Positions 366 through 54,530 of a stretch of DNA of 64,000 bases are shown piece after piece. The DNA lies in assembly GCF_037198315.1 (NCBI RefSeq), contig NZ_CP144913.1:2790001-2854000 (forward strand). Direction: 5' to 3'. This DNA is from Janibacter sp. A1S7 (GTDB lineage: Bacteria; Actinomycetota; Actinomycetes; Actinomycetales; Dermatophilaceae). The notes under the pieces were generated by a model. The model was given only the letters and a program-made list of their open reading frames with translations, was not told where the DNA came from and searched no databases. Each line of letters starts with the position of its first letter. Within the stretch, counting starts at the first letter, position 1. The position numbers were made by a program, and so were the translations under genes.

Positions 366-1691
366 TCAGACGAGCAGCGTGCCCTCGAGTACCCCGGCGC
401 CCCGCAGGTCGCGGTACCAGCGCTCGTTGTCGAACTCCTTGACGAAGCCGTGGCCCCCGAGCAGCTGGACGCCGCTCGAGCCGATCCAGGTGGCGTGCCG
501 CGACACGAGGCTGCGGGCCTGGGCGATCTCGGCGCTCGCGTCCGCACCGCGGTCGAGGAGCGAGGCCGCCTTCCACACCACGAGGCGCAGACCGGCGAGC
601 TCGATGGCGATGTCGGAGACGGTGAAGGCGACGGCCTGGCGATAGCCGATCGGCTCGCCGAAGGCCTTGCGCTCCTTGACGTACTCACTGACCTGGTCGA
701 GGACCGCCTGCGAGGTGCCGACGGCAGCCGCAGCCCACGCCAGACGGGCGCGACGGACGGCGTCGCGGTGGTCCTCGGCGGTGCCGAGCACGTCGCTCTC
801 CGACACGCGAACACCCTCGAGGTGCAGTCGGGCGGTCCGGGCGGCGCGCACGCCCATCGCGGGGTCGTCCTCGACCTGCAGGCCCTCGAGGCCGGCCGTG
901 ACGATGACGAGGCGGGCCTCGCCGTCGATCTCGGCGGAGACGATGAAGAGCTCGGCCTCCTCGGCGCCGGGCACGAGCGCCTTGACGCCGTCGAGGACGA
1001 TGTCGCCACCCTCACGACGGCCCACGGTCCGCAGGGCGAAGGGGTCGAAGAGCACCTGCGACTCCTGCAGCGCCAGGGCGGCGGCCGGCGGGTTCTCCCC
1101 GGCGAACTCGGTCAGGTAGGTGGCCTGCTGCTCCGCGCTCCCGTAGCCGGCGAGCGCGGTGGCCACAGCCGAACGGGCCATGATCGCGGTGGCGATGCCC
1201 ATGTCGCCACGGGCCAGCTCCTCCAGGACGAGGGCGCCGGTGACGGCAGAGCGCTCCTCGGCGATGCCCTCGAGCTCGGCCGGGACCCCGATGAGGTGCA
1301 GACCCATGTCGGCGGCGGCGGTGCGGACCTCGTCCGGAACGGACCGCTCGGTATCGGCAGTGGCGGCAGCGGGCCGGATGACCTCGTCGGCGAGCTCGCG
1401 AGCCACCCCCTGGATCATCTGCTGGTCCTCGGTGGGTGTGAGGTCGAAGGTCTTCTTCGGCTTCGTCGGGGCCGGACGGGCCGGGTCACCGGAGGCCTTC
1501 TTCCTGGCGAAGCCGCGCCCGGCGGCGGTCTGTGCCTTGAAGCCGGTCACGGCACCCTTGTACAGGTACTTCTCGACCCGAGCGCGCACTTCCTTGTCCT
1601 TCAGACCGGGCAGTCCCCCGGCCTTGGCGATGAGACGCAGGCCGATGCGCTGGCCCTTGTCGGCCAGGGTCATCGTTTCACTGGAAGCCAT
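366..1691 (-). CDS. fadE24: Acyl-CoA dehydrogenase, FadE24-type
   Basis: 441 residues from the ATG at 1689-1691. An in-frame extension to 2096 exists but runs back into the pckG start region, so I reject it. A basic leader of about 80 residues precedes the dehydrogenase fold, which starts near TFDLTPTEDQQM. The middle domain contains ESQVLFDPFALR and the C-terminal helical domain QLLGGHGFVKEFDNERWYRD. The protein ends RGAGVLEGTLLV, so the catalytic Glu of the LEGT motif sits a few residues from the C-terminus, as in mycobacterial FadE24 (Rv3139). Role: FAD-dependent first step of beta-oxidation, electrons to ETF; the true substrate is unknown. It is transcribed divergently from pckG and precedes the FadE23-like gene. 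Confidence 0.88.
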   Translation of the reverse strand: MASSETMTLADKGQRIGLRLIAKAGGLPGLKDKEVRARVEKYLYKGAVTGFKAQTAAGRGFARKKASGDPARPAPTKPKKTFDLTPTEDQQMIQGVARELADEVIRPAAATADTERSVPDEVRTAAADMGLHLIGVPAELEGIAEERSAVTGALVLEELARGDMGIATAIMARSAVATALAGYGSAEQQATYLTEFAGENPPAAALALQESQVLFDPFALRTVGRREGGDIVLDGVKALVPGAEEAELFIVSAEIDGEARLVIVTAGLEGLQVEDDPAMGVRAARTARLHLEGVRVSESDVLGTAEDHRDAVRRARLAWAAAAVGTSQAVLDQVSEYVKERKAFGEPIGYRQAVAFTVSDIAIELAGLRLVVWKAASLLDRGADASAEIAQARSLVSRHATWIGSSGVQLLGGHGFVKEFDNERWYRDLRGAGVLEGTLLV

Positions 1692-1729
1692 GGGACTACC
1701 CCTTCGTGTGCGGCAAACCGAAAGTGTTC

Positions 1730-1744
1730 GGTACAGACAGTACC
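1730..1744. promoter_or_regulatory. Inverted repeat between fadE24 and pckG
   Basis: GGTAC-AGACA-GTACC, 5-bp arms around a 5-bp spacer, lies in the 268-bp divergent intergenic region 39 bp upstream of the fadE24 start. It could be an operator for fadE24, but the arms are short and no second copy was noticed. Confidence 0.25.
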
Positions 1745-1959
1745 CGCTACAGCGAGTATCGGTAAACCGGTGAGTCACTACGAGCCCGGGTGATCCGCGG
1801 CACAGCAGCCCGTCACCACGCATTCCGACTGCGCGGGTGATCTCACGCACAAGCGGCCCGTCGCGCCCGGTCCCACCCCTTCTACTGACGGTAGCCTGCC
1901 CACAACGGGAGCCCGAGAGGGAGCACCCGACACCAGAGCACGTGAGAGGGATACAGAGC

Positions 1960-3798
1960 ATGGTCGACGTCGACGCCGCGCTGGATGCGTCAGGCCTCAC
2001 GAACGAGGCTGTCCGCGAGTACGTGAAGCACTGGGCGCAGATCACCCAGCCGGACCGGATCGAGGTGATCGGCGCCGAGGACGACGACCGTCTCATCCAG
2101 GAATGCCTCGAGTCCGGCGAGTTCCAGCCCGCCGGTGAGGGGCGCTACTACTCCCGCTCCTACTCCAAGGACACGGCCCGCTCCGAGGAGCGCACCATCG
2201 TCGCGACCAATGACGAGAAGGACAAGGGCGTCTACAACAACTGGCGTCCGGCCTCCGAGATGAAGGAAAAGCTGACCGAGCTCATGCGCGGCCAGTCCAA
2301 GGGCAAGACGATGTACGTCCTGCCGTACCTGATGTCCCCGAAGGGCAACGAGCTGGCCCAGTGGGCAGCTGGAGTCGAGCTGACCGACAGCCGCCCGGTC
2401 GTGCTGCACATGATGCGGATGTCCCGCGTGGGCGTGGAGCACGTCAACGACCTCCCGGAGCAGGGCAACTTCGTGCGTGCCGTGCACGTCACCGGCGACC
2501 TGGAGAACCTCGGTCAGGGCACCCCCGACGACAAGCGCTACTTCGTCACCGTGGCCGATGAGCGGATGATCCTGCACTTCGGCTCCTCCTACGGTGGCAA
2601 CGCGCTGCTCGGCAAGATCGCCCACGGTCTGCGCCAGGGCGCCTACGACGGCTGGGACACCAGGAAGTTCCTCGCCGAGCAGTACATGCTCATCGGGATC
2701 ACCGACAAGGAGACCGGCAAGCGGTACCACATCACCGGTGGCTTCCCGAGCGCCTCGGGCAAGACCAACCTCGCCATGATGTTGCCGCCGGACGCCATGG
2801 GCGACCGCTACCAGGTCGACTTCTACGGCGACGACATCGCGTGGCTCTGGGTCGACGAGTCGACCGGCAAGCTGATGGGGATGAACCCGGAGTTCGGTGT
2901 CTTCGGTGTCGCCAAGGACACCAACGAGAAGACGAACCCGACCGCTCTGCACTCCACGGACCCGGGCACGAAGGTCATCTTCACCAACGTCGCCTACAAC
3001 CCCAAGCTCGAAGAGGTCTGGTGGGAGGGCCGCACGCCCGAGCCGCCGGCCGACCTGGAGGGGTGGCTGGACTGGAAGGGTCACCCGATCGCCGACCGCG
3101 AGCCGGGCGACGACTCCCCCTGGGCGCACCCGAACAGCCGGTTCACCACGACCCTGGCCAACGTGCCGAACGCCGCCGATGACTTCGACGAGGCCGCCGG
3201 CGTGCCGATCGACGCGATCATCTTCGGTGGTCGCACCCGGGACCGTGAGCCGCTGATCCGCGCGATCCACGACGTCGCCGAGGGCGTCTACGACGGCCTG
3301 ACCCTGGGCGCCGAGGCGACCTTCGCCGCCGAGGGCGTCGAGGGTCAGCTGCGCTACGACCCGATGTCCAACCGGCCCTTCATGGCCTACGGGGAGGGTG
3401 ACTACGCGCGCCACTACCTGGACCTGCTGGCCCAGGTGAAGGACAAGCCGCTCTTCGCGCACGTCAACTGGTTCCAGAAGGACCCGGAGGACGGGCACTA
3501 CGTGTGGCCGGGATTCCGCGAGAACCTGCGTCCGCTCCTGTGGCTGATGCGCCTGAAGGACGGTGAGGTCACCGGTCGCAGCACACCTGTCGGCATCATC
3601 CCGACCGAGGACGAGCTGGACCTCGAGGGCCTCGACCTGCCGCAGGCGGACCTCGACCGGATCCTGTCCATCGACGTGCCGCGCTGGCAGCAGGAGATGG
3701 GCTTCCGAGAGGAGCACCTGAAGCAGTTCGACCGGCTGCCCGAGGAGATCTGGGAGGCCCACCGCCGCGTGTCCGCCGACCTCGACAACGAGGTCTGA
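1960..3798 (+). CDS. pckG: Phosphoenolpyruvate carboxykinase (GTP)
   Basis: 612 residues from the ATG at 1960 (GAGAGGG lies 11-17 bases upstream), a normal length for GTP-type PEPCK. Reaction: oxaloacetate + GTP to PEP + CO2 + GDP, the entry step of gluconeogenesis. Visible motifs: the nucleotide P-loop FPSASGKTN (residues 262-270), the metal-binding GDDIAW, and the guanine-loop region GVFGVAKDTNEKTNPTAL. Odd points: the family's hyper-reactive cysteine of FPSACGKTN is Ser266 here, and the segment usually read as NPEAGFFGVAPGTN is divergent. It stands alone, followed by a strong hairpin. Upstream DNA is shared with divergent fadE24, which makes sense for a cell living on fatty acids. Confidence 0.95.
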   Translation: MVDVDAALDASGLTNEAVREYVKHWAQITQPDRIEVIGAEDDDRLIQECLESGEFQPAGEGRYYSRSYSKDTARSEERTIVATNDEKDKGVYNNWRPASEMKEKLTELMRGQSKGKTMYVLPYLMSPKGNELAQWAAGVELTDSRPVVLHMMRMSRVGVEHVNDLPEQGNFVRAVHVTGDLENLGQGTPDDKRYFVTVADERMILHFGSSYGGNALLGKIAHGLRQGAYDGWDTRKFLAEQYMLIGITDKETGKRYHITGGFPSASGKTNLAMMLPPDAMGDRYQVDFYGDDIAWLWVDESTGKLMGMNPEFGVFGVAKDTNEKTNPTALHSTDPGTKVIFTNVAYNPKLEEVWWEGRTPEPPADLEGWLDWKGHPIADREPGDDSPWAHPNSRFTTTLANVPNAADDFDEAAGVPIDAIIFGGRTRDREPLIRAIHDVAEGVYDGLTLGAEATFAAEGVEGQLRYDPMSNRPFMAYGEGDYARHYLDLLAQVKDKPLFAHVNWFQKDPEDGHYVWPGFRENLRPLLWLMRLKDGEVTGRSTPVGIIPTEDELDLEGLDLPQADLDRILSIDVPRWQQEMGFREEHLKQFDRLPEEIWEAHRRVSADLDNEV

Positions 3799-13442: not shown

Positions 13443-13678
13443 CGCGGGTCCTTCCATCGGGGGTCGAGAAGATGCCGCTCCTGCACGGCCATCTCGCCCA
13501 GGAACGAACGAGACGTTATGTGTATTCCAACATTCCGTTATTCGCGCCCGCAAGAGCGTCTCGCCCCACGGGGACGAACCCTCCCTTCGCCTCGGGCGTG
13601 GGCGAGATCCGCACGAGGTGACGAGGGACGCACCACTGTCGATCACCACTGCGGCACATGCTCACTAGACTGCCCTGC

Positions 13679-16600
13679 ATGTCTGCCCTCCAGATCGTCG
13701 CGATCATCCTCGGGGTCGGGATCACCATCGTCGGATGGGGCCTGCTCGCTCGAGCCGTCAAGCACTTCGTCACCCTCTTCAAGCTCGGCCAATCGACCCC
13801 GAGCGGCGAGCGGACAGCGGACCCGGGGGCACGCACGGCCACGCTGCTGCGAGAGTTCCTCGGCCACACCAGGATGTCCCGCCTGCCGGTCGTCGCCGTC
13901 GCCCACTGGGTGACGATGATCTCGTTCGGGGTCCTCTTCCTGACTCTGGTCCAGGCGACGGGGCAGTTGTTCGACCCGCACTTCGTCATCCCGTTCATCA
14001 GCACGTTCTTCCTCTACGAGTGGATCACCGAGCTGTTCGCGATGACCGGCATCATCACGATCCTCATGCTGATGGCCATCCGTCAGAAGCAGCACCCACG
14101 CTCCGCTGCCGGCGAGGACGGCCGTCGCTCCCGCTTCTTCGGCTCCACCTTCTGGCAGGCCTACTACGTCGAGCTGACGATCCTCGGCGTCGGCATCTGC
14201 ATCGCCCTGCTGCGCGGCATGGAGTACGCGCTGATGAGCAACACCGGCGACACCGAGCACGCGTCGCTGCTCCACTTCCCGCTGACCGCGTGGCTCGGCT
14301 CGCTCTTCACCGGCATGTCCGTGGAGGCGCTCGAGACCGGGATCGTCGTCGTCGCGCTGATCAAGCTGATCATCTCCTACGCGTGGATGATCACCATCTC
14401 GCTCACCCCGACGATGGGTGTCGCCTGGCACCGTTTCCTCGCGTTCTTCAACATCTACTTCAAGCGCCACGCCGACGGGCGCACCTCGCTGGGTGAGCTG
14501 CAGCCGATGATGGTGGACGGCAAGCCGTTCACCATGGAGTCGATGGAGGAGATGGACGAGGACTCCACCTTCGGCGTCGGTCAGGTCGAGGACTTCACCT
14601 GGAAGGGCCTGCTCGACTTCAGCACCTGCACCGAGTGCGGCCGCTGCCAGGACCAGTGCCCGGCGTGGAACACGGAAAAGCCCCTGTCACCGAAGATGAT
14701 GATGATGGCGCTGCGCGACCACGCGCACGCCAAGGCGCCCTACCTGGCTGCCGCCGAGGGCGTCTCCGGTGCACTGCCGTCCGCCGGCGGTGCCCGGTCG
14801 CAGACCAAGACCGGTGCTGTCGCGCTGGCGGACGCGCCGACCGAGGCCGACGGCTCCGTCGCGACCGCCGAGCCGGACGCGATCAACTGGGGCGAGATGG
14901 CCCTCATCGGACAGACCGGGTACGACCCGGAGCACCCGCTGACTGCGTACAACCCGCACGGTCCGGACGTGGTCATCGACGAGGACGCACTGTGGTCATG
15001 CACCACCTGTGGCGCCTGCGTCGAGCAGTGCCCGGTGGACATCGAGCACGTCGACCACTTCGTCGACATGCGCCGATACCAGACGCTCATCGCGTCGGCC
15101 TTCCCGAGCGAGCTGGGTGGCCTGTTCAAGAAGCTCGAGTCGAAGGGCAACCCGTGGGGCATGGGCGCCAAGGCGCGCATGGACTGGGCGAAGGACCTCC
15201 CCTTCTCCGTCAAGGTCTTCGGGGAGGACGTGGAGTCCGCGGACGAGGTCGACTACCTCTTCTGGGTCGGCTGCGCCGGCGCCTACGAGGACCGCGCGAA
15301 GAAGACGACCCGTGCGGTGGCCGAGCTCTTCGACCACGCCGGCGTGGACTTCGCGGTCCTCGGCAACGGCGAGACGTGCACCGGTGACTCCGCCCGCCGC
15401 GCGGGCAACGAGGTGCTGTTCCAGATGCTCGCGGAGCAGAACGTCGAGACCCTCAACGACGTCGGCGCGACGAAGATCGTCGTCACCTGCGCCCACTGCT
15501 TCAACACGATCAAGAACGAGTACCCGCAGCTGGGCGGCAAGTACGAGGTGGTGCACCACACGCAGCTGCTCAACCGCCTGGTCCGCGAGAAGAAGATCGC
15601 GCCGGTCAACCGTCCCGATGGCCCCCGCAAGTCCTCCCTCAAGGACGTGGCGTCGACCGGTCCATCGGTCACGTACCACGACCCCTGCTACCTGGGACGT
15701 CACAACAACGTCTACGCCCCGCCGCGCGAGCTCATCAGCGCCCTGCCGGGCGTCGAGCTGAAGGAGATGGAGCGCACCAAGGAGAAGTCCTTCTGCTGTG
15801 GCGCCGGTGGCGCCCGCATGTGGATGGAGGAGAAGCTCGGCTCGCGGATCAACCTCAACCGTACCGAGGAGGCCATCGCGACCGGCGCCGACCGGATCGC
15901 CGTGGGTTGCCCCTTCTGCCGCGTGATGCTCTCCGACGGGCTGACCGCCAAGCAGTCCGAGGGCGCATCGGATGACATCGAGGTCGTCGACGTCGCCCAG
16001 ATGCTGCTCGCCTCCATCAAGAAGACCGAGGCCGGGAGCGACGGCCAGACCGAGTCCGAGGAGCAGTCCGAGGCCGAGCCCAAGACCGCCGTCCCCGCCC
16101 CGACCGAGGGCACGGAGGCGAAGGGGGCGACCCCCGCCCCGCCGAGTGGGACCGAGACCGCCAAGACCGCCGCCGCGGTCGAGGAGGCAGGCGAGGACCC
16201 GAAGTCCGTCGAGGGCCAGGAGACCGTCGCCGACAAGAACTCGGCTCCCTCCTGGGAGACCGACGCGTCGACTCCGGCTGAGTCCACGGCCCCGACCAAC
16301 GACTCAGCCGCCGCCAAGAACGCCGCCCCCTCCTGGGAGACCGACGCTTCTGCTCCGGCGGCTCCGTCCGCCGAGACCCCGACGACGTCCGAAGACTCTG
16401 TCGCGGCCAAGAACGCCGCCCCCTCCTGGGAGACGGGTGGCACCGCTGCCGCAGGTACCGGTGCTGCCGGCGCTACGTCCTCCGAGGACGAGGCACCGGC
16501 CGAGGAGACCCAGGCCCCGCCGTCCGAGGCCACCGAGGCACCGGCGGCCGAGGAGACCGAGGAGGCGCCGTCCGTGGCCGCTCAGGCCGAGGAGACCGAG

Positions 16601-17467
16601 GAGGCGCCGTCCGTGGCCGCTCAGGCCGAGGAGACCGAGGAGGCGCCGTCCGTGGCCGCTCAGGCCGAGGCACCTGCGACCGCCACGGACGACAGCGACC
16701 TTGCCGCCAAGAACGCCGCTCCCTCCTGGGAGTCCGGCACTCCAGCACCTGCCGCTCCGGCGACCGAGTCACCGGCGCAGGAGTCGGCACCTGAGGCGCC
16801 AGTCGAGGAGGCACCCGTCGAGGAGGCACCGCAGGAGCAGACCGCCCCCGAGGCGGAAGCCCCGCAGGACGAGGACACCCCGGCCGACCAGCCGGAGGCC
16901 GAGACCCCGAAGGCGGAGGCACCCGCGGCCGAGAGCGACCTTGCCGCCAAGAACGCCGCTCCCTCCTGGGAGTCCGGTGGCGCCGCTGACACCGGTGGCA
17001 CCGCTGACGCAGGTGCCGATGCTGGCGCTACGTCCTCTGAGGACGAGGCCGCCGAGGCACCGTCGGCCGAGGCTACCGAGGCACCGGCAGCCGAGCAGTC
17101 AGCTGCCCCGAGTGCTCCGGCCGCCGCGGACGAGAGCGACCTTGCCGCCAAGAACGCCGCTCCCTCCTGGGAGTCCGGCACTCCAGCACCTGCCGCTCCG
17201 GCGACCGAGTCACCGGCGCAGGAGTCGGCACCTGAGGCGCCAGTCGAGGAGGCACCCGTCGAGGAGGCACCGCAGGAGCAGACCGCCCCCGAGGCGGAAG
17301 CCCCGCAGGAGCAGACCGCCCCCGAGGCGGAAGCCCCGCAGGACGAGGACGCCCCGGCCGACCAGCCGGAGGCCGAGGCCCCGGCGGCCGAACCGGCGGC
17401 TCCCTCCTCGGACGACCCGCACCTGTCCGACCTGGCAAAGAAGAACGCCAAGCCGTCCTGGGAGTGA
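13679..17467 (+). CDS. etfD: EtfD-type membrane FeS oxidoreductase with long motif-repeat tail
   Basis: 1262 residues from ATG 13679. Domains: a membrane part with about five helices (residues 1-260); two 4Fe-4S clusters, CTECGRCQDQCP (Cys317, 320, 323, 327) and CTTCGACVEQCP (Cys441, 444, 447, 451); then two CCG cysteine-rich domains (VGCAGAYEDRAKK, CAHCFNTI, HDPCYLGRHNNVY, FCCGAGGARMWME) to about residue 780. This matches mycobacterial EtfD (Rv0338c), which takes electrons from ETF into the quinone pool during beta-oxidation. The rest (about 780-1262) is an Ala/Glu/Pro-rich, acidic, disordered tail with seven KNAAPSWE-type motifs, much longer than the family core. Divergent from cysK; single gene. 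Confidence 0.9.
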   Translation: MSALQIVAIILGVGITIVGWGLLARAVKHFVTLFKLGQSTPSGERTADPGARTATLLREFLGHTRMSRLPVVAVAHWVTMISFGVLFLTLVQATGQLFDPHFVIPFISTFFLYEWITELFAMTGIITILMLMAIRQKQHPRSAAGEDGRRSRFFGSTFWQAYYVELTILGVGICIALLRGMEYALMSNTGDTEHASLLHFPLTAWLGSLFTGMSVEALETGIVVVALIKLIISYAWMITISLTPTMGVAWHRFLAFFNIYFKRHADGRTSLGELQPMMVDGKPFTMESMEEMDEDSTFGVGQVEDFTWKGLLDFSTCTECGRCQDQCPAWNTEKPLSPKMMMMALRDHAHAKAPYLAAAEGVSGALPSAGGARSQTKTGAVALADAPTEADGSVATAEPDAINWGEMALIGQTGYDPEHPLTAYNPHGPDVVIDEDALWSCTTCGACVEQCPVDIEHVDHFVDMRRYQTLIASAFPSELGGLFKKLESKGNPWGMGAKARMDWAKDLPFSVKVFGEDVESADEVDYLFWVGCAGAYEDRAKKTTRAVAELFDHAGVDFAVLGNGETCTGDSARRAGNEVLFQMLAEQNVETLNDVGATKIVVTCAHCFNTIKNEYPQLGGKYEVVHHTQLLNRLVREKKIAPVNRPDGPRKSSLKDVASTGPSVTYHDPCYLGRHNNVYAPPRELISALPGVELKEMERTKEKSFCCGAGGARMWMEEKLGSRINLNRTEEAIATGADRIAVGCPFCRVMLSDGLTAKQSEGASDDIEVVDVAQMLLASIKKTEAGSDGQTESEEQSEAEPKTAVPAPTEGTEAKGATPAPPSGTETAKTAAAVEEAGEDPKSVEGQETVADKNSAPSWETDASTPAESTAPTNDSAAAKNAAPSWETDASAPAAPSAETPTTSEDSVAAKNAAPSWETGGTAAAGTGAAGATSSEDEAPAEETQAPPSEATEAPAAEETEEAPSVAAQAEETEEAPSVAAQAEETEEAPSVAAQAEAPATATDDSDLAAKNAAPSWESGTPAPAAPATESPAQESAPEAPVEEAPVEEAPQEQTAPEAEAPQDEDTPADQPEAETPKAEAPAAESDLAAKNAAPSWESGGAADTGGTADAGADAGATSSEDEAAEAPSAEATEAPAAEQSAAPSAPAAADESDLAAKNAAPSWESGTPAPAAPATESPAQESAPEAPVEEAPVEEAPQEQTAPEAEAPQEQTAPEAEAPQDEDAPADQPEAEAPAAEPAAPSSDDPHLSDLAKKNAKPSWE
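16547..16663 (+). repeat. Tandem 39-bp repeat, three units, in etfD tail
   Basis: Three consecutive 39-bp units each encode AEETEEAPSVAAQ with essentially identical DNA. Confidence 0.9.
16694..16869 (+). repeat. 176-bp direct repeat, copy 1 (etfD tail)
   Basis: Identical by eye to 17135-17310, offset 441 bp (147 codons), spanning one DLAAKNAAPSWESGT motif and the Pro/Glu-rich spacer after it. Confidence 0.9.
17135..17310 (+). repeat. 176-bp direct repeat, copy 2 (etfD tail)
   Basis: Second copy of the 16694-16869 segment. Just after it the QEQTAPEAEAP spacer is itself duplicated in tandem. Confidence 0.9.
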
Positions 17468-34860: not shown

Positions 34861-36732
34861 ATGGGTCACTACAAGAGCAACCTCCGCGACCTGGAGTTCA
34901 ACCTCTTCGAGGTCTTCGGGCGCGGTGAGGTCCTGGGCCAGGGCCCCTACGAAGCCGTGGACGCAGACACCGCGAGCGAGATGCTCAAGGAGTACGCGCG
35001 CCTGGCGGAGAACGAGCTCGGCGAGTCCTTCGCGGACGCCGACCGCAACCCGCCGGTCTACGACCCGCAGACCCACTCGGTCACCATGCCCGAGTCCTTC
35101 AAGAAGTCCTTCCAGGCCTACAAGGACTCCGGCTTCTGGTCGCTCGACGTCCCCGAGGAGCTCGACGGCACCGTCGCTCCCCCGTCGTTGCGCTGGGCGA
35201 TGAACGAGCTCGTCCTCGGGGCCAACCCGGCCATCGGGATGTTCGGCGCCAGCTACTCCTTCGCCAACCTGCTCTACCTGCTCGGCACGCCCGAGCAGAA
35301 GAAGTTGGCCAAGTGGATCGTCGAGAACCACTGGCACTGCACCATGGTCCTCACCGAGCCCGACGCGGGCTCCGACGTGGGCGCCGGACGCACGAAGGCC
35401 ACCGACAACGGTGACGGCACCTGGAACATCGAGGGCGTCAAGCGCTTCATCACCTCGGCCGAGTCGGACATGAGCGACAACATCATCCACTTCGTCCTCG
35501 CCCGCCCCGAGGGCGCGGGCCCGGGCACCAAGGGTCTGAGCCTCTACATCGTCTCCAAGTACGACGTCGACCTCGAGACCGGCGAGCTCGGCGAGCGCAA
35601 CGGTGCCTACGTCACCAACGTCGAGCACAAGATGGGTCTGAAGGTCTCCACGACCTGCGAGGTCACCTTCGGTGAGACGCACGCCGCTGTCGGCACCCTC
35701 TTCGGCGGCGTCCACGACGGCATCGCGCAGATGTTCCGCGTCATCGAGAACGCACGCATGCTCGTCGGCACGAAGGCCATCGCCACTCTTTCGACCGGCT
35801 ACCTCAACGCCCTCGAGTACGCCAAGGAGCGCGTCCAGGGCGCCGACCTGACCACCCCGGCCAAGGACGCCCCCCGCGTGACCATCACGCACCACCCGGA
35901 CGTGCGCCGCTCCCTGATGCTGCAGAAGTCCTACGCCGAGGGACTGCGCGCGCTCGTGCTCTTCACCTCCACCCAGCAGGACACCGTCGACACCCAGCAG
36001 CGCGAGACCGGCTCGGAGGACATCGCCGACGAGAGCCCCGCCGCGATGGCCAACCGGGTCAACGACCTGCTGCTGCCGATCGTCAAGGGCCTGGGCTCCG
36101 AGCGCGCCTGGACGCTGCTCGGCACCGAGTCGCTGCAGACCTTCGGCGGCTCCGGCTTCCTGCAGGAGTACCCGATCGAGCAGTACGTCCGCGACGCGAA
36201 GATCGACACCCTCTACGAGGGCACGACCGCCATCCAGGGCCAGGACTTCTTCTTCCGCAAGATCGTGCGGGACAACGGCCAGGCCCTGGGGCACCTCGCG
36301 ATGCAGATCCAGCAGTTCGCCCAGGACGTCGACGCGCAGGGCGGGGCCCTCAGGACCGAGCGGGAGCTGCTGGCCAAGGGGCTCGAGGACGTCCAGGGCA
36401 TCCTGGGTGCGATGTTCCAGGCGCTGCAGTCCGCTGACCCCAAGGCCGAGGGCTCGGACCTCACCAACATCTACAAGGTCGGGCAGAACACCTCCCGCCT
36501 GCTGCTGGCCGCCGGTGACCTCGTCGTCGGCTGGTTGCTCCTGCGCCAGGCCGCCATCGCGACGACGGCACTGCAGGGCGAGGTCTCCGGGAAGGACCAG
36601 GACTTCTACACCGGCAAGATCGCCGCGGCGAGCTTCTTCGCCAAGAACGTCCTGCCCCGTCTGGCCTCCGAGAAGGCCATCGCCGAGGCGACCGACAACG
36701 CCCTCATGGACGTCCCCGAGGCGGCCTTCTGA
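34861..36732 (+). CDS. fadE5: Acyl-CoA dehydrogenase, FadE5-type
   Basis: 623 residues, long form like mycobacterial FadE5 (611 aa). The start [20 protein letters not shown] is nearly the FadE5 start. FAD/substrate region [20 protein letters not shown]; catalytic Glu453 in [12 protein letters not shown]; an extra C-terminal helical domain (about 470-623) typical of the very-long-chain/FadE5 subgroup. Known FadE5 accepts a broad range of acyl-CoAs; it hands electrons to ETF and hence EtfD, also in this window. Two strong palindromes upstream suggest repression relieved by acyl-CoA, but no obvious regulator gene is adjacent. Monocistronic, ending at a hairpin. Confidence 0.94.
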
Positions 36733-48607: not shown

Positions 48608-50098
48608 GTGGACGTGCTCGAGCTCGCACGGTGGCAGTTCGCCATCACCACCGTGTACCACTTCTTCTTCGTGCCGATCACGATCGGACTCTCCGCGATC
48701 GTCGCGTGGTACCACACCCGATGGGTGCGCACCCGCAACGAGGACCACCTGCGGATGGCGAAGTTCCTCGGCAAGCTCTTCACGATCAACTTCGCGCTCG
48801 GTCTCGTCACGGGCATCGTCCAGGAGTTCCAGTTCGGGATGAACTGGAGCTCCTACTCCCGCTTCGTCGGGGACATCTTCGGCGCGCCCCTGGCCCTGGA
48901 GGCACTGCTCGCCTTCTTCCTCGAGTCGACCTTCCTGGGCCTGTGGATCTTCGGGTGGGGCCGCATCCCGGAGCGGCTGCACGCCGCGACCATGTGGATC
49001 GTGCACATCGGCACCGTCCTGTCCGCGTACTTCATCCTCGCGGCGAACTCCTTCATGCAGAACCCCGTCGGCTACCGGATCAACGCCGAGACCGGTCGGG
49101 CCGAGATGGCCGACTTCCTCGCCGTGCTGACCAACAAGGTCCAGCTGACCGCCTTCCCGCACGTCATCACCGCCTGCTACATGGTCGGCGGCGCCCTGGT
49201 CCTGGCCGTCGGCCTGCACAAGATGCGCCAGAGCACGCGCCTGCTGCAGGACGCGCAGGCGGCGACCGCCGAGCCGGGGACGACGGCGGCCGGCCCCGAC
49301 CACCACGCCGACCGTCGGATGTACCGCCACGCCGCACGGCTCGGCGCCGTCGTCACCCTCGTCGCCGGCCTGGGCGTCATCATCAGCGGCGACCTGCAGG
49401 GCAAGGTCATGACCGAGGTGCAACCGATGAAGATGGCCGCCGCGGAGGCCCTCTACGAGACCCCACCCGAGGGGCAGTGCGCCCCCTTCTCCGTCCTGAC
49501 CGTCGCCGGGCTCGGCGGTGAGGACCCCACCCACGTCATCGAGGTTCCCTGCCTGCTGTCCTTCATGGGCACCGGCAGCTGGGACGGCGAGGTCCAGGGG
49601 ATGACCGAGCTGGAGAACGAGTACCGGGCCCGCTTCGGTGACGGTGAGCTCACCGGCGCCGAGACCTACATCCCGCCGATCGCGATGAGCTACTGGAACT
49701 TCCGCCTGATGATGGGCGCGGGCTTCTTCGCCATGGCCGTCGCCGCGTGGGCCCTGGTCGCCACCCGCGCCAACCGGGTGCCCATGGCCCGATGGGTCGG
49801 TCCACTGCTCGTGGCCACCCCGTTGGCCACCGTCTTCGGTCACAGCTTCGGGTGGATCTTCACCGAGATGGGACGCCAGCCCTGGGTCGTCTTCGGGGAG
49901 ATGGCGACGCACACGGCCGTCTCACCATCGGTCGGATCGGCGGACGTGTGGACGTCGATGATCGTCTTCACGCTGCTCTACGGAGGCTTGGCCGTCGTCG
50001 AGGTCAAGCTCCTGCTCGACTACATCCGCCGCGGCGCCGAGCCCTTCGAGACGCCACGTCTCGTCGAGGACGACGAGCCGCTCGAGTTCGCGTACTGA
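48608..50098 (+). CDS. cydA: Cytochrome bd ubiquinol oxidase subunit I
   Basis: 496 residues from GTG 48608 (TAGGAGA upstream). Nine helices. Heme ligands: His18 in VYHFFFVPITIG, His in AFPHVITACYMVGG, and Met in the GQPW region; MGRQPWVVFGEMATHTAVSP is the conserved quinol/heme motif. The Q-loop is the short actinobacterial type. Terminal quinol oxidase with high oxygen affinity, no proton pumping. First gene of the cydABCD operon; the 126-bp upstream region has no operator I can name. Confidence 0.95.
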   Translation: MDVLELARWQFAITTVYHFFFVPITIGLSAIVAWYHTRWVRTRNEDHLRMAKFLGKLFTINFALGLVTGIVQEFQFGMNWSSYSRFVGDIFGAPLALEALLAFFLESTFLGLWIFGWGRIPERLHAATMWIVHIGTVLSAYFILAANSFMQNPVGYRINAETGRAEMADFLAVLTNKVQLTAFPHVITACYMVGGALVLAVGLHKMRQSTRLLQDAQAATAEPGTTAAGPDHHADRRMYRHAARLGAVVTLVAGLGVIISGDLQGKVMTEVQPMKMAAAEALYETPPEGQCAPFSVLTVAGLGGEDPTHVIEVPCLLSFMGTGSWDGEVQGMTELENEYRARFGDGELTGAETYIPPIAMSYWNFRLMMGAGFFAMAVAAWALVATRANRVPMARWVGPLLVATPLATVFGHSFGWIFTEMGRQPWVVFGEMATHTAVSPSVGSADVWTSMIVFTLLYGGLAVVEVKLLLDYIRRGAEPFETPRLVEDDEPLEFAY

Positions 50099-50113
50099 CC
50101 GGGGAGCACTGAC

Positions 50114-51229
50114 ATGGATCTTGTGACCATCTGGTTCATCCTGCTGGCGGTCCTGTGGACCGGTTACCTCGTGACCGAGGGCTTCGACTTCGGGGTCGGC
50201 ATGCTGCTGCCGGTCCTCGACCGGGGCCGCGGTCCGACGGGTGGCGCGGGGGCCGATCCCGAGGCTGCCTCGTCGCAGCGCCCACGCGCAGCGTGGGACC
50301 CCGACGAGCGAGACGTGCGCCGCCGCACGATGCTGACGACGATCGGCCCGCACTGGGACGGCAACGAGGTGTGGCTGCTCACCGCGGGCGGGGCGACCTT
50401 CGCGGCCTTCCCCCACTGGTACGCGACGATGTTCTCCGGCATGTACCTGGCGCTGCTGGTCCTGCTCGTCGTCCTCATCCTGCGCAACATGGGCCTGGAA
50501 TACCGGCACAAGCGCCCCGACCGCGAGTGGGTGCGTCGCTGGGACCTCGCGATCATCGCCGGGTCCTTCATCGCCCCCTTCCTCGTCGGTGTGGCACTGA
50601 CGAACCTCGTCGACGGCCTGCCGATGACCGAGCACCTCGCCGGCAGCACGCAGTACACCGAGTTCGACGGATCGCTGCTGAGCCTGCTCACCCCGGTGGC
50701 ACTGCTCGGCGGGCTGACCCTGACCGTCCTGTGCCTGGCGCACGGGGCGCACTTCCTCGCGCTGAAGACCACCGGCGAGATCCGCGAGCAGGCCCGTGAG
50801 GTCGCGACCAAGGCCGGCGTCACCTCGGCCCTTCTCGCCGTGGTCCTCCTGGGTGCCCTCGGCCTGCAACGCGGCACCGCCGCCTCGTGGGTGGTCGCCG
50901 GTCTGGCTGCTCTCGCCCTGCTCGCCGCCATCGCCGCCAATGCGAAGGGGGCGGAGGGCCGGGCCTTCACCGGCACCTCCCTGACGATCGCCCTGACGGT
51001 CATCAGCTACTTCCTCATGCTCTTCCCCAATGCGATCAACGGCCGCGGGAGCAGCCCCGACCTCACCCTGGCGGCCGCAGCCAGCTCGCCGTTGACGTTG
51101 ACCATCATGACCTGGGCTGCCGTGGTCTTCACGCCGATCATGCTCGGCTACACGGTGTGGACCTACTGGGTCTTCCGTCGGCGCCTGTCGGTCGAGCACA
51201 TGCCGCAGTCGGTGGACGCACCGACGTGA
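50114..51229 (+). CDS. cydB: Cytochrome bd ubiquinol oxidase subunit II
   Basis: 371 residues. Eight to nine helices; MDLVTIWFILLAVLWTGYLV then TEGFDFGVGML, IGPHWDGNEVWLLTAGGATF and FAAFPHWYATMFSGMYLALL are the family core; W-D-G-N-E-V-W is invariant. A Gly/Arg-rich insertion (about 38-62) separates helices 1 and 2. Follows cydA by 15 bp with its own GGGGAG site. Confidence 0.95.
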   Translation: MDLVTIWFILLAVLWTGYLVTEGFDFGVGMLLPVLDRGRGPTGGAGADPEAASSQRPRAAWDPDERDVRRRTMLTTIGPHWDGNEVWLLTAGGATFAAFPHWYATMFSGMYLALLVLLVVLILRNMGLEYRHKRPDREWVRRWDLAIIAGSFIAPFLVGVALTNLVDGLPMTEHLAGSTQYTEFDGSLLSLLTPVALLGGLTLTVLCLAHGAHFLALKTTGEIREQAREVATKAGVTSALLAVVLLGALGLQRGTAASWVVAGLAALALLAAIAANAKGAEGRAFTGTSLTIALTVISYFLMLFPNAINGRGSSPDLTLAAAASSPLTLTIMTWAAVVFTPIMLGYTVWTYWVFRRRLSVEHMPQSVDAPT

Positions 51230-52860
51230 GACCCTTCGACCCGCGCGTCCTGCGAGCGGTCCCGACCACCCGGGGACCGGTCGCTGCCCTCGCCGGGATC
51301 GGCGTGGCGCAGGGGCTGGCGACGATCGGCACGGCCTTCGCCCTGGCCCTGCTCGTCGTGGCCCTGGTGCGTGGCCAGGACCTGCTCACCCCGGCGCTGT
51401 GGACCGCTGGGCTCTTCGCGGCGCGTGCCCTGCTCGGCGCGGCCGCGGAGAGGGTCGCCGCACACGCCGGCACGCTCGTGGCCACCCACCTGCGCGAGCG
51501 CCTGCTGGATGCGTGGTCGCACCGCACCGCCGACGCCCGGCCCGCACGCGGCCGGGCGCTCACGCTCGCGACCCAGGGCACCAGCGCCGTCGAGCCGTAC
51601 ATCGCGAAGTACCTGCCGGCCCTCGTCTCGGCCGCTGCCGTCCCGCCACTGGCCGTCGCCTGCCTGCTGGTCGTGGACTGGCCGAGCGCGCTCGTGGTCA
51701 TCCTCACCGTGCCGCTCCTGCCCCTCTTCGCCGCCCTCATCGGAGCGACGACGCAGGAGGACACCGACCGGCGGTGGTCCTCGCTGCGCGACCTCTCGGG
51801 GCACTTCCTCGACGTCATGCGCGGGTTGCCGACACTGGTTGGCTACGGCCGTGCCGAGCACCAGGTCGAGATCATCGGCGAGGTGAGCCAGCGCCACCGC
51901 CGGGCGACGATGCGCACGCTGCGGCTGGCCTTCCTGTCCGCCGCGGCGCTGGAGCTGCTCGCGACGATCTCCGTGGCGATCGTCGCCGTCCTCGTCGGCC
52001 TGCGGCTGACGAGCGGGTCGATGGACCTGCTCGTCGGCCTCACGGCGATCCTGATCGCGCCCGAGGCGTACTGGCCGATCCGTCGGGTGGGCACCGAGTT
52101 CCACTCCGCGGCGGACGGCGCCGTGGCCCTCGACGAGATCCTCACCGAGCTCGACCCTGCCGCCACCGAGCCGGTGGCCCCGGCCACGCCGGTCGATCAC
52201 GGGGTGCGAGCTGCCGACGACCAGGACGCGCCACCTGGTCGTGCGCCCGCGCCGACGGTCACGGTCACCGGCGTCGGCTACTCCTACCCCGGCACCGAGC
52301 GCGCAGTCCTCGAGGACGTCGACCTCGTGGCCGGCCCCGGCCTGACCGTCATCACCGGCCCGTCGGGCTGCGGCAAGACGACTCTGCTCGAGATCATCGC
52401 GGGGATCCGCCGTCCCGATCGCGGCGCCGTCGGCGCGTCGCAGGTGCACCTGGTGACGCAGCGCCCCTTCCTCGGCGCCGGCACCCTGCGCGCCAACCTG
52501 ACGATCAGCGGGCCCGCCGAGACGCACGACCAGTGGCGGGCACTGCGCGAGGTGGGCCTCGACGGAGTCGTCGCCGCCCTCCCCCACGGCCTCGACAGCC
52601 CCATCGGCGACGACGGCTTCGGTCTGTCCGCCGGACAGCGGGCCCGGCTCGTCCTCGGCCGGGCGCTGCTCTCCCCCGCGCCGGTCGTGCTGCTCGACGA
52701 ACCGACCGCGCACGTCGACCCCGACTCCGCGGAGGCCGTCGGGCAGGCGATCGAGCGGCTCGCCCGCCGTCGCACCGTCATCGCGGTCAGCCACCAGCCC
52801 GACCTCGTGGCCCGGGCAGACCGCCACCTGGGTCTCGGTCAGCCGGCGGTGACCCGATGA
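51226..52860 (+). CDS. cydD: Cytochrome bd assembly ABC exporter, CydD subunit
   Basis: 544 residues from GTG 51226, overlapping the cydB stop (GTGA). Six-helix ABC exporter domain (about 1-320), then the ATPase: Walker A GPSGCGKTT, Q-loop VTQRPF, signature GLSAGQRAR (here SAGQ, not SGGQ, as normal for CydD), Walker B VVLLDEPT and H-loop VSHQ. With CydC forms the heterodimeric heme/thiol transporter needed for bd oxidase assembly. The linker contains GSMDLLVGLTAILIAPEAYW, typical of CydD. Confidence 0.93.
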   Translation: MRPFDPRVLRAVPTTRGPVAALAGIGVAQGLATIGTAFALALLVVALVRGQDLLTPALWTAGLFAARALLGAAAERVAAHAGTLVATHLRERLLDAWSHRTADARPARGRALTLATQGTSAVEPYIAKYLPALVSAAAVPPLAVACLLVVDWPSALVVILTVPLLPLFAALIGATTQEDTDRRWSSLRDLSGHFLDVMRGLPTLVGYGRAEHQVEIIGEVSQRHRRATMRTLRLAFLSAAALELLATISVAIVAVLVGLRLTSGSMDLLVGLTAILIAPEAYWPIRRVGTEFHSAADGAVALDEILTELDPAATEPVAPATPVDHGVRAADDQDAPPGRAPAPTVTVTGVGYSYPGTERAVLEDVDLVAGPGLTVITGPSGCGKTTLLEIIAGIRRPDRGAVGASQVHLVTQRPFLGAGTLRANLTISGPAETHDQWRALREVGLDGVVAALPHGLDSPIGDDGFGLSAGQRARLVLGRALLSPAPVVLLDEPTAHVDPDSAEAVGQAIERLARRRTVIAVSHQPDLVARADRHLGLGQPAVTR

Positions 52861-54530
52861 GGCGGCTGAGCCCCCTTCGCCTCTCCCGGGGCCTCGTCAT
52901 CGCCGGACTCCTCGGTGGTGTCGCCACCGCCTCGGGCATCGCCCTGACGACGACGTCCGGCTGGCTGATCGTGCGAGCCGACCAGCGCCCGCAGATCATG
53001 CTGTTGCTCACCACGATCGTGGCCGTGCGCACCTTCGGCCTGGCCCGTCCCGTCTTCCGCTACTGGGAGCGTCTGCGCAGTCACGACGTCGCCCTCGCCG
53101 ACCTCGCGGAGCGACGCACGCGGACCTACGCCGCGCTCATCCCGCTCACCCCGGCCCGTCTGGGCACCCGCGGCCGGGCCGATGTCCTCACCGGGGTCGT
53201 CGATGACCTCACGGACGTCGCCGAGGCCTCCGTCCGGGTCACCGTCCCCGCCATCGGGGCACTCCTCGCCGGTGTCCTCGCGGCCGCCCTCACCGCGGTG
53301 GTCGACCCCCGTGTCGGGCTGGTCCTCGCCGGGATGCTCCTGGCGACCGCCATCACCGCCGGGGCCGCCGACCGCCTCGAGTCACGCGCCCAGGCCGAGG
53401 TGCTCGCCGCCCGCGCCGAGGTCGCCCGGGTCGCCCAGCTGACCGCCGACCACGCCGACGAGCTGCGCTCCATCGGAGGCACCGGCACGGCCGCCCAGTG
53501 GCTGCGGGACGCCCACGCCACCCTGCGCACCGCAGTCCAGCGGCAGTCGTCCGGCCGGTCCCTGTCCGCCGCGGCGGTGCTGATCATCACCGGCGCCGCC
53601 GCCCTCGCGGCCGCCGTCCTGGCGTCCTCCTCCGGCGCCGGCGCCCCCGTCAAGGCACTGCTCGTCCTGACCCCGGTCGCCACCGGCGAAGCCCTCGGTG
53701 TCCTCACCGACGCCACCCGCTCCCTCGCCCGAGCGCGGGCCTCCCAGCGGCGTCTGGACGAGCTGCTGGGCCAGGAGCCGGCCGTCGCCGACCACGGCGA
53801 GACCACCCCCCCACCGGGCCGCGCCCGGAGCCACCACCCCCGCCCACTCGACCCTCCGCGGCTGCAGCTGCGTGGCCTCACCGCCGGCTGGCTGCCCGGG
53901 CGCACCGACGTCGGCCCCCTCGACCTGACCATCGAGCCCGGCGAGCACATCGCGATCACCGGCCCGAACGGCAGCGGCAAGTCGACGGCCCTGGCGGTCC
54001 TCGCCCGCCACCTCGACCCCACCGGCGGCAGCTACACCATCGACGGCGTCGAGGCCACCGACCTGGACCTGCAGGAGGTGCGCGAGCTCTTCGCGATCGT
54101 CGACGACGAGCCGCACGTGCTCGCCGGCACCCTGCGGGCCAACGTGGTCCTGGCCGCCCCGGGCGCGGACGACGAGGTGGTCATCGACTCCCTTCGTCGC
54201 GCGGGGCTGGGCGCCTGGCTCACCGGCCTGCCCGACGGGCTCGACACCCGTCTCGGCGCCGGAGGTCTGGGGATCTCCGGCGGTGAGCGGACCCGCCTGG
54301 CCATCGCCCGCGCCGTCGCCAGCGCACGCCCGGTCATCGTCCTCGACGAGCCGGTGGCCCACCTCGACCACCCCACTGCGGAGGCGGTCCTGGCCGACCT
54401 GCTGCACCACGCCGACCGGCGGTCGGCAATCATGGTGACCCACCACGGGATCGGCCTGGACCACATGGACCGCGTCGTCATGATCGAGCGGGAAGGAGCA
54501 GACGGTGTCCAAGAACGCATTGCTGGGTGA
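52857..54530 (+). CDS. cydC: Cytochrome bd assembly ABC exporter, CydC subunit
   Basis: 557 residues from ATG 52857, overlapping the cydD stop (ATGA). Membrane domain with TTTSGWLIVRADQRPQIMLL and VRTFGLARPVFRYWERLRSH, a CydC hallmark. ATPase: Walker A GPNGSGKST, signature GISGGERTR, Walker B VIVLDEPV, H-loop THHG. The 3' end overlaps the next gene (blaI) by 26 bp, so the cyd operon continues into the BlaI/M56 pair. Confidence 0.93.
   Translation: MRRLSPLRLSRGLVIAGLLGGVATASGIALTTTSGWLIVRADQRPQIMLLLTTIVAVRTFGLARPVFRYWERLRSHDVALADLAERRTRTYAALIPLTPARLGTRGRADVLTGVVDDLTDVAEASVRVTVPAIGALLAGVLAAALTAVVDPRVGLVLAGMLLATAITAGAADRLESRAQAEVLAARAEVARVAQLTADHADELRSIGGTGTAAQWLRDAHATLRTAVQRQSSGRSLSAAAVLIITGAAALAAAVLASSSGAGAPVKALLVLTPVATGEALGVLTDATRSLARARASQRRLDELLGQEPAVADHGETTPPPGRARSHHPRPLDPPRLQLRGLTAGWLPGRTDVGPLDLTIEPGEHIAITGPNGSGKSTALAVLARHLDPTGGSYTIDGVEATDLDLQEVRELFAIVDDEPHVLAGTLRANVVLAAPGADDEVVIDSLRRAGLGAWLTGLPDGLDTRLGAGGLGISGGERTRLAIARAVASARPVIVLDEPVAHLDHPTAEAVLADLLHHADRRSAIMVTHHGIGLDHMDRVVMIEREGADGVQERIAG

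Follow-up and report, generated by a model that had tools for sequence, protein, structure and literature searches.

The window analysed here, a 64,000-nucleotide stretch of the Janibacter sp. A1S7 genome (NCBI RefSeq assembly GCF_037198315.1, contig NZ_CP144913.1, positions 2,790,001 to 2,854,000 of the forward strand), encodes a protein identified by sequence comparison as EtfD, a membrane iron-sulfur (FeS) oxidoreductase of the COG0247 type, whose long C-terminal tail carries seven copies of a short tryptophan-containing motif (Table 1). The solved EtfD of Mycobacterium smegmatis (9ojn_A) is matched with an E-value of 1.6e-197 over residues 10-972, which covers the whole core, and a Pfam scan recovers two CCG (PF02754) stretches and a Fer4 domain, the last match stopping at residue 758. 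The conserved core stops near residue 785. In an alignment of 33 sequences the cysteines for two predicted ferredoxin-type clusters and two predicted CCG-bound clusters are invariant (C316/319/322/326, C442/445/448/452, C533/568/605/608 and C671/707/708/745/748, in the numbering of the relative P0017). Translation may in fact begin with the ATG at 13679 rather than at 13658, because the database copy of the protein (P0001, 1262 amino acids) is seven residues shorter.

Beyond residue 780 translation continues for 489 residues rich in alanine (27.8%), glutamate (16.8%) and proline (12.9%), in agreement with the tail of about 480 residues described in the initial annotation. The exact core N-x-x-P-S-W-E occurs seven times within it, the last copy ending the protein, and all seven tryptophans of the tail lie inside a copy; both the count and the rarity of tryptophan elsewhere in the tail were thus as first reported. 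When the tail was shuffled 20,000 times, at least one copy of the motif appeared in 2 shuffles. The spacers after copies 4 and 6 are nearly identical and another spacer holds a short tandem repeat. Since some spacers have been duplicated recently, likeness within this single protein is weak evidence, and it is the comparison between species that carries weight.

Table 1. Features of the window, with the parts of EtfD listed first
Feature	Position	Strand	Basis or remark
etfD-like coding sequence, membrane FeS oxidoreductase with long tail	13658..17467	+	1269 amino acids; match to M. smegmatis EtfD 9ojn_A
Second CCG (cysteine-rich) domain, residues 671-758	15668..15931	+	PF02754, best of two stretches
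Disordered Ala/Glu/Pro-rich tail, residues 786-1269 (predicted)	16013..17464	+	composition; low model confidence in relative P0017
Motif copy 1, KNSAPSWE	16235..16258	+	motif search
Motif copy 2, KNAAPSWE	16316..16339	+	motif search
Motif copy 3, KNAAPSWE	16409..16432	+	motif search
39-bp tandem repeat x3.2 in spacer, recent duplication	16546..16670	+	repeat search
Motif copy 4, KNAAPSWE	16709..16732	+	motif search
Motif copy 5, KNAAPSWE	16949..16972	+	motif search
Motif copy 6, KNAAPSWE	17150..17173	+	motif search
Motif copy 7, KNAKPSWE, C-terminus	17441..17464	+	motif search
Acyl-CoA dehydrogenase	366-2096	-	Pfam
Acyl-CoA dehydrogenase	34861-36732	+	Pfam
Cytochrome bd oxidase subunits I and II	48608-51229	+	
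Open reading frame with ABC transporter domain	51399-54530		

Structure prediction is consistent with a disordered tail. An AlphaFold2 model of P0017 (986 amino acids, three motifs), built on a 33-row alignment, reached a mean predicted local distance difference test score (pLDDT) of 55.2 and a predicted template modelling score of 0.44; its tail (residues 784-986) lies mostly below pLDDT 50, in blocks mostly of 27-42, and the core itself is poor. A fold or intramolecular docking within the tail was considered and set aside, the model, a shallow monomer prediction with a poor core, giving just a low-confidence helix at 974-981 before the terminal PSWE.

We compared the motif with its spacers across the Janibacter group, whose motif is hereafter called class A. 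An EtfD match was obtained in every one of the 16 genomes searched within the genus: 11 have complete tails ending in PSWE or PDWE, two are cut by contig ends but show copies, two are interrupted (by a frame change or N) and one lacks a readable frame. The complete class A tails read carry 7-13 copies. Across 14 complete class A tails, 147 of 148 tryptophans stand in P-x-W-E, 146 of them with asparagine at position -5. A loose motif search of the same 14 tails returned 151 windows, of which 141 had the core intact; the other ten comprise five PDWE or PAWE, one KKSAPSWE and four without tryptophan. In ten chosen pairs of tails the identity of the motifs was 0.85-1.00 and that of the spacers 0.37-0.87, with the aligner anchoring on the motifs. 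At the codon level, taking every tail tryptophan (or phenylalanine in the class where this is the anchor) as the anchor, leaving the anchor codon out and counting all pairs of copies, so that events are not independent, the ratio of nonsynonymous to synonymous differences (pN/pS) is 0.070 for N, P, S and E, against 0.687 in the flanking codons (11 proteins, 119 tryptophans); the enzyme core gives 0.163 (100 codons). Anchoring on P-[SDA]-W gives 0.032 against 0.668, although fixing P and W biases this value low. The motif is under purifying selection and the spacers are close to free; it thereby passes the comparison of core with spacers that the initial annotation had called for.

These values bear on one alternative, namely that the tail has no specific function and is a GC-rich minisatellite expansion of a permissive region. 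The varying copy number and the repetitive spacers agree with such an expansion, as do the tailless clades described below and a close relative (genome G528) that is out of frame in its tail; the tenfold difference between core and adjacent codons and the near confinement of aromatic residues to the motifs do not, and we regard this explanation as very improbable. In G528 itself (L185, G528:C1:2766700-2771400, bases 2656-3760), which is 98% identical in the core piece, the core and the SWE copies lie in different frames, and eight SWE copies stay in frame up to a terminal KNAKPSWE before the stop, reflecting either an assembly error or a true frameshift.

In the genomes scanned, clusters of the motif are confined to EtfD. 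Written as a DNA pattern, the motif matched seven times in the 3.36-Mb genome of the window's own strain, every time in etfD, and a reversed control pattern gave 0 matches. With the local motif of other lineages (Table 2), 38 of 39 matches in six class B genomes, 23 of 27 in six class F genomes and 18 of 18 in six class E genomes fell in EtfD; the five matches outside it, from class B and F genomes, are all isolated, and clusters were limited to EtfD throughout the 19 genomes scanned. This fits one dedicated partner. It also agrees with sticker-and-spacer self-association, in which the motifs would attach to one another or to an adjacent EtfD, gathering the enzyme into clusters at the membrane, with ETF, the soluble electron carrier (EtfBA), being no direct ligand.

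The wider comparison covered reading frames at 80 named loci and in genomes retrieved by searches at the level of phylum, class, family and genus. Related EtfDs carry different motifs at the same position in the tail, which we grouped into eight classes (Table 2); the class and end patterns were written after the tails had been read, and the classes of L185, L043, L066 and L231 were set by hand. Long reading frames were picked on purpose, so that the 75 complete tails, from which six contig-cut ones are excluded, give no estimate of frequency. By pattern, a terminal copy is present in 72 of these 75 tails; the others are L013 (frame broken, with N), L209 and L213 (which by eye ends in EALRRLQQGG). 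Such constancy, together with the strongly constrained exact cores, resembles recognition by a pocket more than generic stickiness, and in this respect speaks against self-association. The P0017 model, in which no tail fold appears, points the same way, but as a shallow monomer model it offers no real test.

Table 2. Motif classes in EtfD tails, with the number of complete non-redundant tails
Class	Motif	Source	Tails
A	N..PSWE	Janibacter; Marihabitans in protein list	15
B	DPWD(EP)	Knoellia, Phycicoccus, Arsenicicoccus	24
C	RFGWA, end LGAWKG	Kytococcus	2
D	M.A[AS][DE]AL..., end EAL.IL	Piscicoccus, Kineosphaera, Austwickia	10
E	KGLGIAGGAKRPGAKK and variants	genomes of family f6	11
F	GGSLFD[IL], end SLFDL	family f8, presumably Nocardioides	11
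G	K.MSWE	two lineages	1
H	GDSWL	one genome among Ornithinimicrobium relatives	1

The EtfDs of Phycicoccus, Knoellia, Arsenicicoccus and their relatives are the same enzyme with the same tail position and a tryptophan-acid core in 3-15 copies, but show DPWDEP where the window protein has KNAAPSWE; 23 of the 24 complete class B tails end in DPWD or one residue past it. In 26 class B tails all 211 tryptophans lie within PWD, and in 11 class F tails 87 of 92 phenylalanines lie within LFD. Core and flank pN/pS are 0.000 and 0.675 in class B (10 proteins), 0.342 and 1.09 in class F (11 proteins), and 0.294 and 0.504 in class E, where the anchor lies inside the motif. Constraint on the motif is thus weaker in classes F and E.

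A further 114 tails could be assigned to no class: 104 of them have 29-89 residues after the CPFC motif, and among the other ten are truncated or broken frames as well as three long tails from one f8 genus nearly without aromatic residues. So many EtfDs are practically tailless that a tail is neither a universal feature nor a requirement of the EtfD fold. The initial annotation had held that the docking idea would fail if homologues with the same core lacked the motif, and here the outcome is divided: SWE is absent outside the Janibacter group, many relatives carry another repeated tail motif, and many others are almost tailless. The three long tails (L097, L175 and L176; 307-519 residues counted) contain no tryptophan, at most two phenylalanines and at most one tyrosine, repeat blocks such as TPDPEPEPGD, and are sister to the SLFDL group. 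Many short-tailed EtfDs (L015-L026 and others, from Pedococcus, Terrabacter and Ornithinimicrobium) share an acidic-proline ending like PTPDPEPAPVA, possibly a single-copy end motif.

We placed the motifs on a phylogeny of 171 catalytic-domain pieces, from which 33 rows were dropped and the short-tailed rows of L104-L133 left out, and which carries local Shimodaira-Hasegawa-like support only. Classes A, D, E and F each fall on one side of a branch (local support 99), class B requires three changes, and all ten labels together require 11. In a second tree, computed without class F and with two cut tails scored as having none, class A groups with a DPWD lineage (G568) and the MSWE lineages G574 and G563 at a local support of 95; the same grouping is weaker in the 171-piece tree (90, 84 and 54). 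Judged from these sequences, PSWE, MSWE and DPWD may be one drifted motif, with SWE derived from an older tryptophan-acid motif; the motifs of classes D, E and F look unrelated. In the phylogeny a contig filed as an Acidobacteria metagenome-assembled genome (L060) sits among Ornithinimicrobium, and an EtfD filed as Helicobacter pylori (P0009) is 68% identical to the query; both are probably contamination or mis-binning.

A long disordered repeat tail is already on record for the orthologous mycobacterial enzyme (Rv0338c / MSMEG_0690; PDB 9OJN), which revises the statement of the initial annotation that no description of anything like it was known. According to the parts of the published reports available to us, the tail of M. 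tuberculosis EtfD is proline-alanine-rich, repetitive and disordered (PMC11567552), and mycobacterial EtfD has a disordered region at 778-1042 that contains interspersed repeats and varies in length between species (PMC13083937, citing Szekely et al. 2020). The mycobacterial motif is basic and glycine-rich (KGLGIAGGAKRPGAKK; GLG..RPG), whereas that of the window protein is acidic and anchored by tryptophan (KN..PSWE), and the two belong to separate clades. The M. smegmatis motif, seen in the 9ojn_A match, is that of class E, in which tails hold 2-9 matches of GLG..(K/R).PG, and 11 of 11 carry a match at the C-terminus. Within the available part of PMC13083937 we found no mention of the motifs of other lineages or of a terminal copy. 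In open-access literature (titles and the beginnings of abstracts, subscription papers being outside the scope) we found no description of PSWE, DPWD or SLFDL tails, of clade-by-clade motif replacement or of the terminal copy. What is known for mycobacteria from these partly available sources is thus the disordered repeat tail and the proposal of an ETF contact with it; the other motifs in the same tail were not found described.

A single docking tip at the C-terminus is familiar from SSB and FtsZ, in which a disordered linker presents a short, extreme C-terminal peptide that binds partners. The EtfD tail differs from these tips in having several copies of a clade-specific sequence, whereas the tips are usually single and widely conserved.

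Multivalent peptide docking is the most economical reading of the tail, because the motif is repeated on a disordered leash, is selected, is clustered in one protein and has a free terminal copy; in the initial annotation the repeated, well-kept motif of a disordered tail stands, and the partner is the part that we infer, as are binding itself and the local-concentration effect. ETF is the likeliest partner, since mycobacterial EtfD has been reported to co-immunoprecipitate EtfB (M. tuberculosis; PMC8593149, available in part) and a published AlphaFold3 model places ETF in contact with the disordered region of EtfD (PMC13083937, available in part). Each motif, here N-x-x-P-S-W-E, would be a peptide some 5-8 residues long that binds weakly, with tryptophan as the likely anchor. 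Several copies on the leash would catch ETF, hold its local concentration high near the membrane and deliver it to the FeS clusters of the core; the core would reduce menaquinone. Binding would have to stay weak, since ETF has many acyl-CoA dehydrogenases to visit as well. In the 2026 structure ETF was not retained in the cryo-electron microscopy sample and the tail was not seen, and a weak interaction was suggested (PMC13083937, available in part). That the tail is a flexible, multivalent, weak docking arm concentrating ETF at the membrane is a tentative proposal to which, on the sequences at hand, we give slightly less than an even chance.

Related lineages would achieve the same docking with other motifs. 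The tails of actinobacterial EtfDs could then form a single docking system in which the recognition code was exchanged time and again, with ETF adapting through a small number of changes at its surface that in the Janibacter group may lie on EtfA, a broader view that we hold possible but rather doubt. It would embrace at least four clearly different motif types (tryptophan-acid, SLFDL, helical ASEAL..L and GLG..RPG), or six with the Kytococcus and GDSWL types.

We examined ETF for traces of such adaptation. The genome of the window's strain has one ETF pair. Among pairs matched for EtfD divergence, the ETF distance within a motif class is smaller than that between classes in five of five bins, although the pairs are not independent. 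Sites specific to the Janibacter group number 14 in EtfA and 1 in EtfB against a background of 50 rows, two of them from outside the family, and 15 and 1 against another background. Counts in EtfA and EtfB for other groupings are 20/11 for the genus Janibacter alone, 2/3 for tailless Pedococcus-like genomes, 15/10 for Knoellia, 13/15 for Phycicoccus, 40/28 for Arsenicicoccus-like genomes, 7/5 and 9/6 for two class D groups, 38/44 for Kytococcus-like genomes and 10/15 for Intrasporangium/Terrabacter-like genomes. We treat the EtfA excess of the Janibacter group, with clade history uncontrolled, as a lead only, hinting at a motif-linked change in ETF. Weak support for ETF docking comes from genomes with a second EtfD beside the ETF genes, which is tailless in four of four; of their stand-alone EtfDs, read in two, one (G630) ends in 533 residues that carry class D motifs and the other (G549) has no tail. 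At L300, L310 and L314 (and L313 in part) the second, tailless EtfD directly adjoins the etfB-etfA pair, and an etfBA-etfD operon separate from the stand-alone EtfD is possible.

Several observations weigh against docking of ETF. The gaps between the within-class and between-class ETF distances are mostly small (0.198/0.217, 0.235/0.254, 0.224/0.279, 0.290/0.305 and 0.293/0.314). ETF has gained no domain, EtfB measuring 259-266 and EtfA 313-321 amino acids in 65 genomes, and it stays conserved while the motif changes fully, 118 of 259 columns in EtfB and 144 of 316 in EtfA being at least 95% identical (50 rows). Many EtfDs have almost no tail, and docking must therefore be possible without one. 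The AlphaFold3 contact was modelled in one lineage, and the M. tuberculosis co-immunoprecipitation, as far as the report is available, listed 49 proteins in all (PMC8593149). A new docking domain on ETF, considered as a separate candidate, was not found, the lengths being alike in the 65 genomes.

The variation of motif chemistry between clades (tryptophan-acidic, leucine-phenylalanine-acidic, basic-glycine and helical) beside a conserved ETF would be easier to understand if self-sticking sufficed; in view of the terminal copies and constrained cores, we nevertheless hold self-association of EtfD to be unlikely. Some other partner might be bound, such as the acyl-CoA dehydrogenases, a complex of the respiratory chain, a factor that assembles FeS clusters or acts as their chaperone, or an anchor at the cell pole or a membrane domain. 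The docked acyl-CoA dehydrogenases and the membrane hub for beta-oxidation envisaged in the initial annotation are conjectural. Short C-terminal signals for FeS assembly exist elsewhere. The FeS clusters of EtfD are unusual (PMC13083937, available in part), and 41 of the 49 co-precipitated proteins were of the membrane or cell wall (PMC8593149, likewise). Pfam scans of 51 open reading frames in the window, however, revealed no dedicated partner gene linked to etfD, and ETF is already known as the carrier that EtfD meets; a partner other than ETF accordingly appears rather unlikely to us.

ETF serves many clients, and a conserved peptide of 5-8 residues makes its proposed docking on the membrane oxidoreductase directly testable. 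If different codes do serve the same partner, the clades would represent a natural experiment in the replacement of docking motifs; a single electron-transfer pair would have come by several mutually orthogonal codes in nature, and these could be a source of orthogonal peptide tethers for redox enzymes.

Among the neighbours of etfD, three acyl-CoA dehydrogenases had been annotated initially; two were found and a third was not among the 51 open reading frames scanned with Pfam. The window also encodes both subunits of cytochrome bd, a quinol oxidase, followed by an open reading frame with an ABC transporter domain.

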